Source: Candidatus Methanomethylicaceae archaeon
Lineage (GTDB): Archaea > Thermoproteota > Methanomethylicia > Methanomethylicales > Methanomethylicaceae
Assembly (NCBI GenBank): GCA_025057955.1
Contig: JANXER010000009.1
Coordinates: 1-51,075, forward strand
Direction: 5' to 3'
Length of the DNA: 51,075 bases
Notes under the pieces: model-generated
Databases searched by the model: none
Told to the model about the DNA's origin: nothing
The model's input: only the letters and a program-made list of their open reading frames with translations
Position numbers and translations under genes: made by a program
Shown here: piece after piece, positions 11,863-49,763 of the stretch
Numbering within the stretch: position 1 is the stretch's first letter
How the letters are laid out: every line of letters starts with the position of its first letter

Positions 11863-12024
11863 ATGCCAATACAAGATCCTGAGAAACTTAGAATTGCTCA
11901 GCAGCATTTGCTCTATGTTAAGATATGTAGGAAGTGTGGAGCAAGAAATCCAATGTCAGCAGAAAAATGCAGAAGATGTAGAAGTAAAGAACTTCGTCCA
12001 AAAAGAAGAGAATTGAAACGCTAA
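11863..12024 (+). CDS. rpl40e: 50S ribosomal protein eL40 (L40e)
   Basis: A 53-aa ORF missing from the track: MPIQDPEKLRIAQQHLLY, then a four-cysteine zinc knuckle (CRKC...CRRC) and a basic tail ending KRRELKR. This is the archaeal L40e, the counterpart of the ribosomal part of eukaryotic ubiquitin-L40 fusions. AGGTGA lies 6 nt before the ATG. It lies between the Lrp-like regulator and tRNA-Val. Confidence 0.97.
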   Translation: MPIQDPEKLRIAQQHLLYVKICRKCGARNPMSAEKCRRCRSKELRPKRRELKR

Positions 12025-37712: not shown

Positions 37713-38521
37713 TATTCACCACCACTTAGGACTATTTTCCGCAACTCCTGACTTTTAACCTTAGCGATTTCTACAGCTCTCATTAATTCCTCAGGAGTTA
37801 GAATACCGGGACCACCTTTTTGCATAGCACATATATGCTCCTGACCATTTTTTTCAACAAAAGCCACACTTATTCTGCAATCCATAACTTCCTCCTCATC
37901 AAGTGATGGATCCACAAAGAGTTTATCGCCAATTTTCGCTAAAGTGATTGTTATAGGAAGGTTAGAAATTGGTAATGGAACATATTCATTTAAAACCTTT
38001 ACTTCATTTTCAATAACTTCCGTCCTTGGCATCTTTGTTGTCATCAACGCACATAGGCTTGCTAGAGCTGAGGCATCAATTAAATTACCACAATGATCTA
38101 ATATGAATATATCCACCCAAACAATCCAAACTTTCTTGCCAGGAATGATGCAAAGCCTTTGAGTATTTATCATCTTTGCGCCACGAAATGCTCTATCCAC
38201 GATTCTGGCTAGCTCTATAGCTCTCTCATCGGGAGGGCCAGATTCAAATGTTGGAGAGGCCAATGGTAGAAATTCTGCATTTACAGAGATAACTCCTTCA
38301 TTCGGTATATCGGGAAAGGGATCTCCTATTTCAAATTTTATTCCTGCAATAACGTAAGTATCTCCAAGCTTAACTGTGGCTGAGCCCTCAGCTTTATCTA
38401 AAACATTTGTTCTAATTTCCAATTTTCTCATATCTGTCAATCCACGGCCATCTATTCTTTTACCACTCTCTGCAAGCGCCATTATGTGTCTTTTCTTAAT
38501 TGATGGAACAATATTAGACAT
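37712..38521 (-). CDS. rrp42: exosome complex subunit Rrp42
   Basis: RNase PH-fold subunit, non-catalytic on its own, pairing with Rrp41 in the hexameric core. ESGKRIDGRGLTDMRKLEI, GDPFPDIPNEGVISVNAEFLPLASP and KVWIVWVDIFILDHCGNLIDASALAS. 269 aa is the normal length. The start overlaps the rrp41 end by 8 bp. Confidence 0.96.
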   Translation of the reverse strand: MSNIVPSIKKRHIMALAESGKRIDGRGLTDMRKLEIRTNVLDKAEGSATVKLGDTYVIAGIKFEIGDPFPDIPNEGVISVNAEFLPLASPTFESGPPDERAIELARIVDRAFRGAKMINTQRLCIIPGKKVWIVWVDIFILDHCGNLIDASALASLCALMTTKMPRTEVIENEVKVLNEYVPLPISNLPITITLAKIGDKLFVDPSLDEEEVMDCRISVAFVEKNGQEHICAMQKGGPGILTPEELMRAVEIAKVKSQELRKIVLSGGE

Positions 38522-39248
38522 TTTCCAACCCCACCTTAATTTCCTTGAAATATGATTCCAGCGTCTCTCTCTGCTTTTTATAAACTTCCATACAACCCTT
38601 CTTTGCTAATTCAAAAGCTTTTTTGAATTCCTCATATGTTAACATTCCATCCATTTGTATCAAAGTAATTACATTCTTTGATGGCATTATAGCAATTGGC
38701 ATATCAGCGGATCCATGTTTATCTTCCTCATCCTTAACATCAAGTACTATTTGATCTTCAACTTTTGCCACTGCAATACTTGATACTAAATCTCGCATGG
38801 GGATGCCTGCATCTGCAAGAGCCAAGGATGCCGCAGATATAGTAGCACATCTAGTACTACCATCAGCTTGAAGCACTTCGGCAAATATATCAATCGTAGT
38901 CCTTGGGAACATCTCCACAAAAATTGCCGGTTCAAGAGCCTCACGTATTACCTTAGATAATTCAATCTCTCTACGTGAAGGGGCAGGAGATTTTCTCTCT
39001 TCTACAGAGAAGGGAGCCATATGATAGCGAGCTTGTACTATACATCTATCTGGTACTGCAAGATGTTTTGGATGAGCTTCTCTTGGACCATATACACCAA
39101 CAAGTATCTTTGTTTTTCCCCATTCTACATAAGCAGATCCATCTGCATTCTTCAAAACGCCAATTTTAAATCTTATTGGTCTAATTTCATCTAAACGCCG
39201 ACCATCAATACGCAATCCATCCTCAGATATCAATTTTCTTATTCCCAT
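38514..39248 (-). CDS. rrp41: exosome complex exonuclease Rrp41
   Basis: Catalytic phosphorolytic 3'-5' RNase of the archaeal exosome. It has DGLRIDGRRLDEIRPI, SAYVEWGKTKILVGVYGP, IFAEVLQADGSTRCATISAASLALADAGIP and VLDVKDEEDKHGSADMPIA, with the acidic catalytic residue of the final motif present. 244 aa. AGGAGGTAG precedes the ATG. Confidence 0.97.
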   Translation of the reverse strand: MGIRKLISEDGLRIDGRRLDEIRPIRFKIGVLKNADGSAYVEWGKTKILVGVYGPREAHPKHLAVPDRCIVQARYHMAPFSVEERKSPAPSRREIELSKVIREALEPAIFVEMFPRTTIDIFAEVLQADGSTRCATISAASLALADAGIPMRDLVSSIAVAKVEDQIVLDVKDEEDKHGSADMPIAIMPSKNVITLIQMDGMLTYEEFKKAFELAKKGCMEVYKKQRETLESYFKEIKVGLENV

Positions 39249-39253
39249 GCTAA

Positions 39254-39937
39254 CTACCTCCTTTTCATTAGAAACTCATGAATTCTATCAGTTAAACCAC
39301 TTATATGAGCTTCCAACTCTATTTTCTTTATAGCTTCTGCAACTAAGATTTCATTTTCCCTAGACTTCCCACTTATTAAAATTCTACCATTCTTTCCAAC
39401 ATATATTTGACAACCAGATTCCTTCTTTAATAAGCTTATCATTGATCCCTTTTTCCCAATAATTCTAGGGACTCTTGTTGGATTTACTTCAACAATCATT
39501 CCCTTCTGAATCTTACCCAAACCTTGTCCCTTTGCATTAAGTAGAGGATTTTTTGTTCTATCAAATGAAGTTACCTTAGCCATCACCATCTCACCTACAT
39601 CCAAGAAGCTACGAATATCCTCCTTCATTACATTAAGAGGTTTTGAGAGATATTCCTTAGCAAATAGAATAGCATTCCAAGGTGCTCTTATGTCTAATAT
39701 CCATGCTGTTGGAATAACATCAATAATTTTACCTATAACAATATCTCCAATTGAAGGAATATAAAATCCCTTTAGGGGGATTACAGTAATTACATTATTT
39801 CTCAGTTCTGCTAATCCAACTATTGTGGAATAAAATTTGTTGTCTTCTCTATAGACGTTATCTCCTGCTTCATATTTTCCTTCAGCCAATAGGTGTCCAG
39901 GGCCAACTATTTGTCTTGAAGTGAAGTTGATTGTAAT
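39254..39937 (-). CDS. rrp4: exosome RNA-binding cap subunit Rrp4, apparent AUU start
   Basis: Cap protein feeding RNA into the exosome: N-terminal domain, S1 domain (GDIVIGKIIDVIPTAWILDIRAPWNAILFA) and KH domain (VPRIIGKKGSMISLL). The track starts at TTG 39889 (AEGKYEAG), but the same frame continues upstream with SRQIVGPGHL, matching the conserved Rrp4 N-terminus (compare PRSIVVPGELLAEG in Sulfolobus, from memory). That extension has no ATG, GTG or TTG. It begins directly after an in-frame TAA with ATT ATT ACA ATC, and GAGGTGAT lies 5 nt before the second ATT, my preferred start. Confidence 0.95.
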   Translation of the reverse strand: MTINFTSRQIVGPGHLLAEGKYEAGDNVYREDNKFYSTIVGLAELRNNVITVIPLKGFYIPSIGDIVIGKIIDVIPTAWILDIRAPWNAILFAKEYLSKPLNVMKEDIRSFLDVGEMVMAKVTSFDRTKNPLLNAKGQGLGKIQKGMIVEVNPTRVPRIIGKKGSMISLLKKESGCQIYVGKNGRILISGKSRENEILVAEAIKKIELEAHISGLTDRIHEFLMKRR

Positions 39938-39942
39938 AATTT

Positions 39943-39950
39943 ATCACCTC
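39943..39950 (-). promoter_or_regulatory. Shine-Dalgarno of rrp4 preceding ATT codons
   Basis: Perfect GAGGTGAT overlapping the SBDS stop region, 2 nt and 5 nt before two consecutive ATT codons. The nearest conventional in-frame start lies more than 50 nt downstream, inside the conserved domain. Confidence 0.75.
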
Positions 39951-40644
39951 ATGTTCTCTTTACTATGCTTATCTCTATATCGCCCCTTGTTATTTCATTT
40001 AATCGATCTATAACTGATTGTTGAATCCCTGCAGGAATTACAATCTCACCTTTCCAAGATCCATCAGAAAGCCACTCAGATTTTGTCAAATCCCCTGTTT
40101 TTGATAAGTAATCTTTGACCTTGCTTGCACGCTCCTTTTTTGTATGAACTGAAATAGTAACTTGACTTACTTTTAATGGTAGTACTGTTCTCAATGCCTT
40201 TATCACCTCTTGAGCTTGCTCCTCCACAGGCTTAAATGGATCAATGCTTATTCTAATGTTTTCTATAGCATTCTCAATTCTAATAGGAGGATGTGGCAAT
40301 CCAGTCTGAGGATCTACACAATTTCTAGCAATAAAAGCAACTATCTGCTTTCTTTTATTCTCAATCATTTGTCTTCGTTGTTCTGTTGTTAACTGAAGTT
40401 CTCCTCTTTTTATTATTGCAGTTGCTACTGTTTTCAAGTCTGCTGTACCAAAATTTTTAATAATTGCTTCCTCTGAGGCTTTCTCTCCTTTTTTCGCATC
40501 CTTATAGACTATTTCACTTATAAGCAATTCCTTAAGGTCTACTTCTTTTCCACTCTTCAAAGCCCAAGCCAAATCAGGATCTACTAATATTTCGAAATGC
40601 TCCTTTCCAATGGTCAGCCTAGCTATTACTTTTTCCTTGGGCAT
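39949..40644 (-). CDS. sdo1: ribosome maturation protein SBDS (Sdo1)
   Basis: Homologue of the Shwachman-Bodian-Diamond protein; with an EF-2-like GTPase it evicts aIF6 from 50S subunits, and aIF6 is encoded at 26 kb here. VIARLTIGKEHFEILVDPDLAWALKSGKEVDLKELL, KKGEKASEEAIIKNFGTADLKTVATAIIKRGELQLTTEQRR and the C-terminal ferredoxin-like domain. 231 aa. Two bases from psmA. Confidence 0.96.
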   Translation of the reverse strand: MPKEKVIARLTIGKEHFEILVDPDLAWALKSGKEVDLKELLISEIVYKDAKKGEKASEEAIIKNFGTADLKTVATAIIKRGELQLTTEQRRQMIENKRKQIVAFIARNCVDPQTGLPHPPIRIENAIENIRISIDPFKPVEEQAQEVIKALRTVLPLKVSQVTISVHTKKERASKVKDYLSKTGDLTKSEWLSDGSWKGEIVIPAGIQQSVIDRLNEITRGDIEISIVKRT

Positions 40645-46954: not shown

Positions 46955-48489
46955 TCTCCTATTGCTCTTATGAATTCACTTCTCAAGATCTCTGTCGGTG
47001 TTGGCATTTTTATTTCTTCCCATGGTAATGGTAAATCCAAGGATTTTGGCTCATATAACTTTTCTGGATTTTTATTAAAGCTCTTGAGTACTCTTCTCCA
47101 GCTTCCTAAACTTTCAGATCCTCTTATAGCAATATCATCTATAAGAGCTTTAATTATCTTCGAGGCTTCTAATCCAGCTGTTGAAAGATAAGCTTGAATA
47201 TTACACCATCTATAATCTAAGGATTCCACTCTTCTTATCCCCAAAGAGGAAGCCTTTCTTTGAATAATGTTCACTCTTCTCTCATAATCTTTCCTTGAAA
47301 TTAAAGGAAGCCACTGAAATGGTGTATTGGCCTTTGGAATTAATGGATTTATAGATATATGAATTGAGGATGGATTAAAGCCTAAAGAGATGATTTTAGA
47401 AAGCATTATATCAAATCCCTCAAGATCTTCATCCCTCTCTCCTGGTATCCCTATCATGAAATAAAGTTTCAAAGATTTGATTCCAGCTCTATGCGCTTTA
47501 TATATCATAGAATAGAATTGATCATTCTCAAATTTTTTATTAATCACTTCTCTTAATCTCTCTGATGGAGTCTCGGGCGCTATTGTAAGAGTCCTCTGTC
47601 CACCAGAGGCCATAAGCCTCATAAGCTCTTCATCCATATCATAAACTCTCAATGATGGAACAGAAAAGGAAATTCCTCTATCCATTAGATAGGATAGTAT
47701 GTCCTTTATTTCTGGATGATCTAATAAAGCTGAACTTATGCAACAAATACGCTTAACATTAGTAAGGAGAAGGCCTTCCTCAATTATATTTTTAATGGTA
47801 CTTACAGATCTATCTCTCTTTGGAGAGAAAAGAAAAGTCTCTAAACAAAATCTACATCTCCTATTACAACCTCTACTTATCTCCAATAGAAATGACGATA
47901 GAAATCCTATTTCTTCCTCTGAGATTATTTGTCTAAGTGAATGAGGGGAGGAGTTCAAATCTCTTACGGAAATTTTCTCAGTAGGTTTTCCTAATTGATA
48001 AATTCCAGGGAGCTCTGGTTCATGAGATTTTACATCTTTCTCCATTAAAAAGTTCAAAAAATCGTCCAAAATAGGTTCAACTTCCCCAATTATAAATAAA
48101 TCTATGAATGGTGCCATTGGGATTGGATTTGCTGATATGGAAGGACCTCCTGCAATTACTATTGGATGAGAGCGATTCTTCGATTCCAAGGGTATTCCAG
48201 AAGATCTAAGCATATCCAGCGATCTAATATAATCCATTTCATGCTGAAGAGAGAAGCCTATAACATCAAAATAACTGAGTGGCATTCCAGACTCTAAACT
48301 TCTTGGAGGAGAGCCATAATTAGAGAAGAAGAAACGCTCACAAAGGGCATCCTCTCTTTGATTTATGAGCTCATATAGTAGGCGAATTGCAAGATTGCTC
48401 ATTCCAACACTATATAAATTTGGATAGACTAATGCGAACTTCAATTTAACACTTCTATGATCCTTTTTGACAATATTTCTCTCTTTCAT
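46948..48489 (-). CDS. radical SAM protein with B12-binding-like N-terminal region
   Basis: A 513-aa radical SAM enzyme. The 4Fe-4S motif is EISRGCNRRCRFC (CxxxCxxC, about residue 212). The N-terminal part (KFALVYPNLYSVGMSNLAIRLLYELIN, VIAGGPSISANPIPMAPFIDLFIIGE) resembles COG1032 B12-binding/radical SAM proteins. The core continues with TIAPETPSERLREVINKK and LYFMIGIPGERDEDL. The chemistry (methylthiolation, methylation or other) is not predictable. It is translationally coupled to the GlmU-like gene (4-bp overlap). Confidence 0.85.
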   Translation of the reverse strand: MKERNIVKKDHRSVKLKFALVYPNLYSVGMSNLAIRLLYELINQREDALCERFFFSNYGSPPRSLESGMPLSYFDVIGFSLQHEMDYIRSLDMLRSSGIPLESKNRSHPIVIAGGPSISANPIPMAPFIDLFIIGEVEPILDDFLNFLMEKDVKSHEPELPGIYQLGKPTEKISVRDLNSSPHSLRQIISEEEIGFLSSFLLEISRGCNRRCRFCLETFLFSPKRDRSVSTIKNIIEEGLLLTNVKRICCISSALLDHPEIKDILSYLMDRGISFSVPSLRVYDMDEELMRLMASGGQRTLTIAPETPSERLREVINKKFENDQFYSMIYKAHRAGIKSLKLYFMIGIPGERDEDLEGFDIMLSKIISLGFNPSSIHISINPLIPKANTPFQWLPLISRKDYERRVNIIQRKASSLGIRRVESLDYRWCNIQAYLSTAGLEASKIIKALIDDIAIRGSESLGSWRRVLKSFNKNPEKLYEPKSLDLPLPWEEIKMPTPTEILRSEFIRAIGDL

Positions 48490-49763
48490 TTCTCTCTAAA
48501 TTCCAATTCAAATTTTTGAAAGACAAATGAATTTTGTGGAACATCCTTATAAACTGCAGTATGAGGGGCAATCCAACTATTTGGCCCTATCTTCACTCCA
48601 GGATATATGCTCACATTAATTCCAGTTTTCACATTATCACCAATGAATGCCCCTAGCTTTCTCCTTCCACTATTCACTTTCTCCCCTTTAATTGTAACTT
48701 TTATTGAGGCTTCATCAAATCTAAGATTTGAGATTATAGTTCCAGCGCCTATATTACATCCAGCTCCAATAATACTATCACCAATATAGGAAAGATGGCC
48801 TATATGAGTATTCTCCATTATTATGCTAGCCTTAACTTCACAAGCATTTCCTATTCTTACATTTTGACATAGATATGTATATGGTCGAATATAACAGTTT
48901 GGGCCAATTATACACCCTTTAGATATCCATACTGGGCCTTCTATGTATGATCCAGAAAGAATATGAGCGCCTTCTTCAATTACAACATTGCCCAATATAT
49001 GAGCGCCTTCTTCAACCATTCCAAGAATTCTTCTCTCTTTAATCAGTTTATCCATTAAAATTCTATTTGCCTCGAGTATATCCCATGGTCTTCCTACATC
49101 TATCCACTCATCCTCCTTAGCTTTGACAATAAGCATTTTGAATCCACTGTCCATAGCAGCATTGATTGCATCAGTAAGCTCAATCTCTCCTCTATTGGAT
49201 TTTGGCGTTCTTTCTAAGAAATCAAAAATTTCTGGCTTAAGTATATATATTCCACCGTTAATTAGATTGGGGCCTTCTATATTGGGCTTCTCCTCAATTC
49301 TTAATAATAAATTGTTCTTTATTGATAGCACTCCAAACTCTTTAGCATTTCTAACAGGAACTGCAAGTATAGCACCAAAGTAGGATTTATTAAATAGAGA
49401 AATCATATCATGAAGAATGGAAGGATGAAATGCAAGATCTCCATATATGACCAGAAAGGGATCGTCCTTAAGCAAATTCCTACATGAAAGTAAAGCCTCT
49501 CCTGTTCCTCCAAGGGATGGTTGTTCCAAATATCCTATTTTAATACCAAATTTAGATCCATCACCTAAATGAGCCTTTATAGATTCTCCCATGTATTTTA
49601 TAACAATTATTATTTCATTCACATTTATTTCTTTCAGAGCATTAATTATATGTTCAATTAAAGTGGCTCCAGCAATTGGAATCATATGCTTAGGACGTGT
49701 GATTGTAAAAGGTTCAAGCCTAATTCCTTTACCAGCCGCAAGAATTACAGCCTTCGTAGTCAT
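48486..49763 (-). CDS. glmU: bifunctional sugar-1-phosphate nucleotidylyltransferase/acetyltransferase (GlmU-like)
   Basis: N-terminal nucleotidyltransferase (AVILAAGKGIRLEPFTITRPKHMIPIAG, LGGTGEALLSC, VIYGDLAFH, DEWIDVGRPWDI) and C-terminal left-handed beta-helix hexapeptide repeats (VIEEGAHILSGSYIEGPVWISKGCIIGPNCYIRPYT, IGAGCNIGAGTIISNLRFD). Same layout as archaeal enzymes of the Sulfolobus ST0452 type making UDP-GlcNAc. 425 aa. Overlaps the GlmM-like gene by 4 bp, supporting a joint pathway. Confidence 0.9.
   Translation of the reverse strand: MTTKAVILAAGKGIRLEPFTITRPKHMIPIAGATLIEHIINALKEINVNEIIIVIKYMGESIKAHLGDGSKFGIKIGYLEQPSLGGTGEALLSCRNLLKDDPFLVIYGDLAFHPSILHDMISLFNKSYFGAILAVPVRNAKEFGVLSIKNNLLLRIEEKPNIEGPNLINGGIYILKPEIFDFLERTPKSNRGEIELTDAINAAMDSGFKMLIVKAKEDEWIDVGRPWDILEANRILMDKLIKERRILGMVEEGAHILGNVVIEEGAHILSGSYIEGPVWISKGCIIGPNCYIRPYTYLCQNVRIGNACEVKASIIMENTHIGHLSYIGDSIIGAGCNIGAGTIISNLRFDEASIKVTIKGEKVNSGRRKLGAFIGDNVKTGINVSIYPGVKIGPNSWIAPHTAVYKDVPQNSFVFQKFELEFREK

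Follow-up and report, generated by a model that had tools for sequence, protein, structure and literature searches.

Probable ancestral AUU start of the exosome gene rrp4 in Methanomethyliaceae, with candidate near-cognate starts in further genes

Comparison across related genomes indicates that the archaeal exosome gene rrp4 very probably starts at an AUU codon in much of the family Methanomethyliaceae, and that this start is old. In the window, by which we mean the whole stretch of 51,075 nucleotides analyzed here, the codon lies at 39937-39935 on the minus strand. Our preferred reading, to which we give a probability of about 0.78, is that this AUU would be used by the ordinary Met-initiator tRNA with the help of a strong Shine-Dalgarno (SD) sequence and, usually, of ribosomes terminating on the upstream SBDS gene, and that it is one near-cognate start among several in this lineage.

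The rrp4 Start Region

Counted from the AUU, rrp4 occupies 39254..39937 (minus strand) and consists of 227 codons plus the stop. Its product carries N-terminal, S1 and KH domains in that order (Pfam ECR1_N_2, RRP4_S1, KH), which identifies it as the archaeal exosome subunit Rrp4, and it matches PDB 2je6 chain I with E=8e-60. The gene order SBDS-rrp4-rrp41-rrp42, established from open reading frames and their translations with Pfam matches for SBDS and rrp41, is that of an archaeal exosome neighborhood. SBDS (39949..40644, minus strand) ends in a TGA at 39951-39949 that overlaps the rrp4 SD, 11 nt upstream of the AUU, and rrp41 (38514..39248, minus strand) follows as the next exosome-operon gene with an ATG start.

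Read on the minus strand in the rrp4 frame, the start region is AAC ATG AGG TGA TAA ATT ATT ACA ATC AAC TTC ACT TCA AGA CAA, continuing ATA GTT GGC CCT GGA CAC CTA TTG, where the final TTG is that at 39889. The in-frame TGA (39946-39944) and TAA (39943-39941) rule out every start further upstream, the GTG within GAGGTG included. They are followed by ATT at 39940-39938 and the second ATT at 39937-39935 (the AUU above), and the frame read through from these stops holds no ATG, GTG or TTG before the first canonical codon, TTG 39889-39887. The sequence-only reading had already described the lack of a canonical start here, the TAA directly before ATT ATT and a perfect SD ending 5 nt before the second ATT; we found all of this as described, with the TGA in addition and the SD being GAGGTGAT at 39950-39943. 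The 3' end of the window genome's 16S rRNA (...ATCACCTCCT), whose tail is standard, is exactly complementary to it.

As a reference for spacing we used 123 confident canonical starts in Methanomethyliaceae that match the SD over 5 nt or more, measured from the GGAGG register; 89 of these 123 fall at 7-10 nt. On the same scale the second ATT stands at 9 nt, the first ATT at 6, ACA at 12 and ATC at 15, and only the second ATT combines a 16S-complementary SD with normal spacing. The first ATT was rejected as the start, a spacing of 6 being rare among SD-led starts.

The conventional choice would be TTG 39889, a legal start and the first in frame, giving an Rrp4 that is N-terminally shortened in the window genome. 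Such a start would strip the N-terminal domain of its conserved RQIVGPG segment. Moreover, this TTG has no SD, corresponds to an internal Leu codon in relatives (TTA, CTT, CTA or CTG), and lies downstream of codons under coding-type constraint. That the missing segment is conserved had been argued from the sequence alone, and it does belong to the real protein: the Pfam ECR1_N_2 match begins at residue 7 of the AUU-started Rrp4, the alignment with solved archaeal Rrp4 chains begins at residue 6, and the 16 codons after the ATT differ from the nearest relative by 6 synonymous and 3 nonsynonymous changes, a coding-type conservation. We consider a start at TTG 39889 barely credible.

The Start Column in Related Genomes

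Of 61 related genomes, 60 yielded an Rrp4, and the Methanomethyliaceae set comprised 22 genomes in seven genera (g1-g7). In the column of the second ATT, g1 (two genomes), g3 (three), g4 (one), g5 (one) and g6 (three) all have ATT, so that it is shared by five genera and 10 separate assemblies. The g2 genomes read have ATG in this column, as does the order-level outgroup G022, and g7 has a TTG one codon downstream of it. Because ten separately assembled genomes have ATT at exactly the same column, a sequencing error at this site was ruled out. The sequence-only reading, which proposed the AUU start, had called for this alignment and named ATG in relatives, together with a local error here, as the finding that would speak against it. 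The shared ATT does not agree with such an error, and the comparison, including the ATG of other relatives, strongly supports the proposed start. Among the other archaeal rrp4 loci read, most have ATG or TTG at or near the start column and a few have GTG; a Marsarchaeota record (L111) has a probable CTG, and a sister-family genome (G036) has ATA as the rrp4 start with a AGAGAGGTGG SD.

In a tree of Rrp4 and a glmU-like protein (see below), some inner nodes of which are weakly supported, the ATT genera fall on either side of the basal split of Methanomethyliaceae. Given this placement, ATT appears to be ancestral in the family, and the simplest history would be one origin with later switches to ATG in g2 and to TTG in g7.

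We also considered whether the start might be the GTG of GAGGTG, used in a leaderless or SD-less manner, with the ATT an internal Ile codon and the window genome frameshifted or misassembled. A GTG within GAGGTG, GGGGTG or AGGGTG does lie in frame, three to four codons before the ATT, in 9 of the 10 ATT genomes, and the window genome has one extra T at that site compared with G001. However, no SD precedes the GTG, initiation there would consume the SD itself, and the intervening codons vary, in contrast to the invariant ATT. In four of the five genera, 11-26% of Ile codons are ATT (about 45% in g1), and since it is thus a minority codon in those four, a fixed ATT is unlikely to be a plain Ile codon; treating the genera as independent draws, which is not entirely correct, gives a probability of about 2e-4 that the invariance arose by chance. 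Furthermore, the column is ATG in g2 and the outgroups, g2 has stops between GTG and ATG, the extra base of the window genome places two stops between GTG and ATT, and the ACG start of the glmU-like gene shows the same pattern without any GTG. This makes the GTG quite unlikely as the start in place of the ATT, although relatives may use both.

Near-Cognate Starts in Other Genes

We surveyed 180 ortholog groups (850 genes) in stretches of ten Methanomethyliaceae genomes for conserved protein sequence upstream of the first canonical start. The clearest match was the archaeal glmU-like gene (TIGR03992), which occupies 48486..49757 on the minus strand of the window. In 13 genomes from six genera, an ACG stands exactly at the column where relatives have ATG, often preceded by a G-rich SD and, a few codons upstream, by an in-frame stop. 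The window genome also has an ATG at 49763-49761, 6 nt upstream of the ACG. Because this ATG is only 1 nt from GGAGG (49769-49765), compared with 7 for the ACG, the ACG at 49757-49755 is the better candidate and the probable start. It would represent an independent parallel to the rrp4 AUU, apparently also ancestral to the family.

Further CTG candidates were found in Pcc1 (G011), in an Sm-like/HTH gene (G001, with CTG at or beside that column in G010 and G011), in a metallo-beta-lactamase-fold gene (G001 and G010, with TTG in G011), in an acetolactate-synthase-like gene (G011) and, more weakly, in RecJ (G012). ACG is a candidate in IdsA (G004) and possibly in RNase P component 4 (G012), and ATT in an NTPase (G012), there without an evident SD. 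In the sister families, ATA starts occur in SRP19 (three genomes) and in a kinase (two genomes), and a CTG start in a ZPR1-type zinc-finger gene (three genomes). The ZPR1-type CTG (L331 and matching G030/G036 stretches) and the SRP19 ATA (L332 and matching stretches) are conserved within one sister family, and each stands behind an SD in its three genomes. Many automatic flags were discarded as shadow ORFs, conserved promoters or cases with a nearby canonical start, and a control of four more distant genomes (241 genes, mostly pairs) gave only weak and noisy flags. Counted in this way, one to a few percent of the genes would have near-cognate starts, a rough figure because the control was small and cases were assessed by eye. 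One further locus (gi145 in G010, L227:10536-10970) has TTT where relatives start with TTG behind AAGGAGGGATGA, possibly an error.

The translation factor gene aIF5B, first flagged as start-less, was removed from the candidates because a bulge-helix-bulge intron accounts for its interruption. The GTPase domain contains an insert of 22-27 nt, bearing in-frame stops or a frameshift, between the ATG and the ACC of ...GAM-TQHIGA.... This insert is present outside the window near 12,000 of G000:C33 (L365), in L161 (G011), L155 (G010) and L158 (G012), and in G001 and G003 stretches, and is absent from G004. The insert fits a textbook bulge-helix-bulge intron (in G001, TTGGG GCCA TGA CTGCT..AGCAG TGGC AAA CCCAA); its inner stem covaries, and splicing yields precisely the frame seen in G004, which has no intron. 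PMC2738675 names a single confirmed mRNA intron in archaea, that of cbf5.

The sequence-only reading had treated the AUU of rrp4 as isolated, a view superseded by the near-cognate starts in other genes of the family and class. As far as these alignments go, AUU, ACG, CUG and AUA starts appear to be kept in Methanomethyliaceae and sister families, mostly at operon gene junctions, and this wider pattern is arguably more interesting than rrp4 alone. We lean slightly toward a general reading in which start selection in Methanomethylicia is permissive. AUU, AUA, ACG and CUG would then be genuine and long-conserved starts in a small share of genes (one to a few percent, among them rrp4, glmU-like, Pcc1, SRP19 and ZPR1), lying chiefly at operon junctions with an SD and serving as fixed expression brakes that selection maintains and standard annotation hides. 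An alternative for some of these genes is C-to-U RNA editing, which could turn ACG and CUG into canonical starts and would leave the rrp4 AUU as a separate oddity. ACG to AUG and CUG to UUG are each a single C-to-U step, but AUU and AUA, which such editing does not restore, occur in the same lineages. We know of no mRNA editing in archaea, and regard this explanation as highly improbable.

How an AUU Start Might Operate

Under our preferred reading, the Met-initiator tRNA (anticodon CAU) would be accepted at AUU despite the third-position mismatch, with the strong SD GAGGUGAU holding the small subunit precisely at the codon. Loading of the start would usually be helped by ribosomes that finish SBDS just upstream. 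In a coupled gene pair the upstream stop would be expected to overlap the start or to lie no further than about 14 nt from it. The SBDS stop lies 9-11 nt upstream of the rrp4 start position in 7 of 10 Methanomethyliaceae genomes; in g6 the distance is 33-77 nt, so the coupling is not essential. Near-cognate groups adjoin an upstream stop more often than ATG-type groups do (5/7 vs 12/60; Fisher p=0.009, post hoc).

The initiator tRNA, read by eye (L287), looks normal and has a CAT anticodon, and aIF1 is conserved and normal-looking in the Methanomethyliaceae members read. From these two observations, decoding by a mismatched ordinary initiator seems likely; an altered initiator tRNA or anti-SD was set aside in view of the normal-looking CAT initiator and the standard 16S tail. 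At L287 (G000:C22:75600-75900, minus strand), the initiator tRNA apparently has a small intron directly after the anticodon, and ARAGORN mislabels it as tRNA-Ser.

If the AUU is used at low efficiency, it would act as a fixed brake that keeps Rrp4 low relative to Rrp41 and Rrp42. Rrp4 and Csl4 share three places in the exosome cap, and a low, fixed dose of Rrp4 would make sense for this reason. Such an output is the probable effect of the AUU, although the brake role is extrapolated from the efficiency of AUU in Escherichia coli and may not hold in Methanomethyliaceae.

The AUU might instead be regulatory in the manner of infC, with Rrp4 synthesis depending on how abundant or how stringent aIF1 or another initiation factor is, as the sequence-only reading suggested for initiation-factor levels. 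The AUU start is retained across a family, aIF1 of Saccharolobus solfataricus destabilizes complexes on non-AUG mRNA (cited in PMC6237735), and in Methanomethyliaceae a conserved TTG is the start of aIF1 itself. Yet Rrp4 is not an initiation factor, so that a feedback loop would stay unclosed and infC-like autoregulation has no specific support; in an infC-type case the product would be a factor that discriminates against non-AUG starts, and here it is an exosome subunit. The other near-cognate genes have unrelated functions, aIF1 looks normal, and RNA structure at the rrp4 start is not unusual (z=-0.17). The suggested sensitivity to initiation-factor levels thus finds no specific support, and we consider this explanation unlikely. 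In the minimum-free-energy fold the rrp4 SD is paired with codons 4-8, whose sequence is not kept in the nearest relative.

The TTG of aIF1, the start-codon fidelity factor, stands behind AGGTGA in every Methanomethyliaceae member read (L172, L297, L303, L305, L309, L312), an arrangement reminiscent of the self-control of eIF1 and IF3.

Relation to Known Systems

Near-cognate starts count as exceptional in prokaryotes. Established examples of AUU starts are those of E. coli infC and pcnB (cited in PMC1780047), and the efficiency of AUU in that species is about 0.3% of that of AUG (Hecht 2017, cited in PMC10666635). Among 61,358 ancestral AUG starts, one switch from AUG to AUU and two from AUG to CUG were recorded (PMC5622118). 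In a review on initiation in archaea, a text search turned up AUG, GUG and UUG only (PMC7531240), and the literature searched, whose scope excluded most subscription papers, yielded no report of conserved AUU, ACG or AUA starts in archaea. If the AUU of an exosome gene and the ACG are conserved as proposed, archaeal start selection can be looser than thought, and a start codon can serve as a stable dose setting. Apparently ancestral AUU and ACG starts are here accompanied by a normal-looking initiator tRNA and aIF1. With several such genes in the family, standard gene finders would mis-annotate them and truncate their proteins.

Rrp4 of the Saccharolobus exosome (PDB 2je6) has the same N-terminal, S1 and KH domains, with rrp41 and rrp42 in the operon, and differs from the rrp4 described here in the start codon only. 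E. coli infC (IF3) and pcnB resemble rrp4 in having an AUU with an SD, conserved at a specific gene (for rrp4, in ten genomes from five genera) and expected to initiate at low efficiency. They differ in that rrp4 has archaeal initiation machinery, an exosome product and an operon junction beside SBDS; infC is called autoregulated, and its link to rrp4 is by analogy only. Streptomyces sigR, with a GTC start repressed by IF3 (PMC5472188), likewise places a particular gene under the control of a near-cognate start, but it is bacterial, encodes a stress sigma factor, and involves another codon and factor. Finally, the termination-reinitiation pairs of Haloferax (PMC10666635) share with rrp4 a downstream start near an upstream stop, with an SD. 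Those pairs were studied with conventional starts, whereas at rrp4 the start is AUU and the distance 9-11 nt (33-77 nt in g6).
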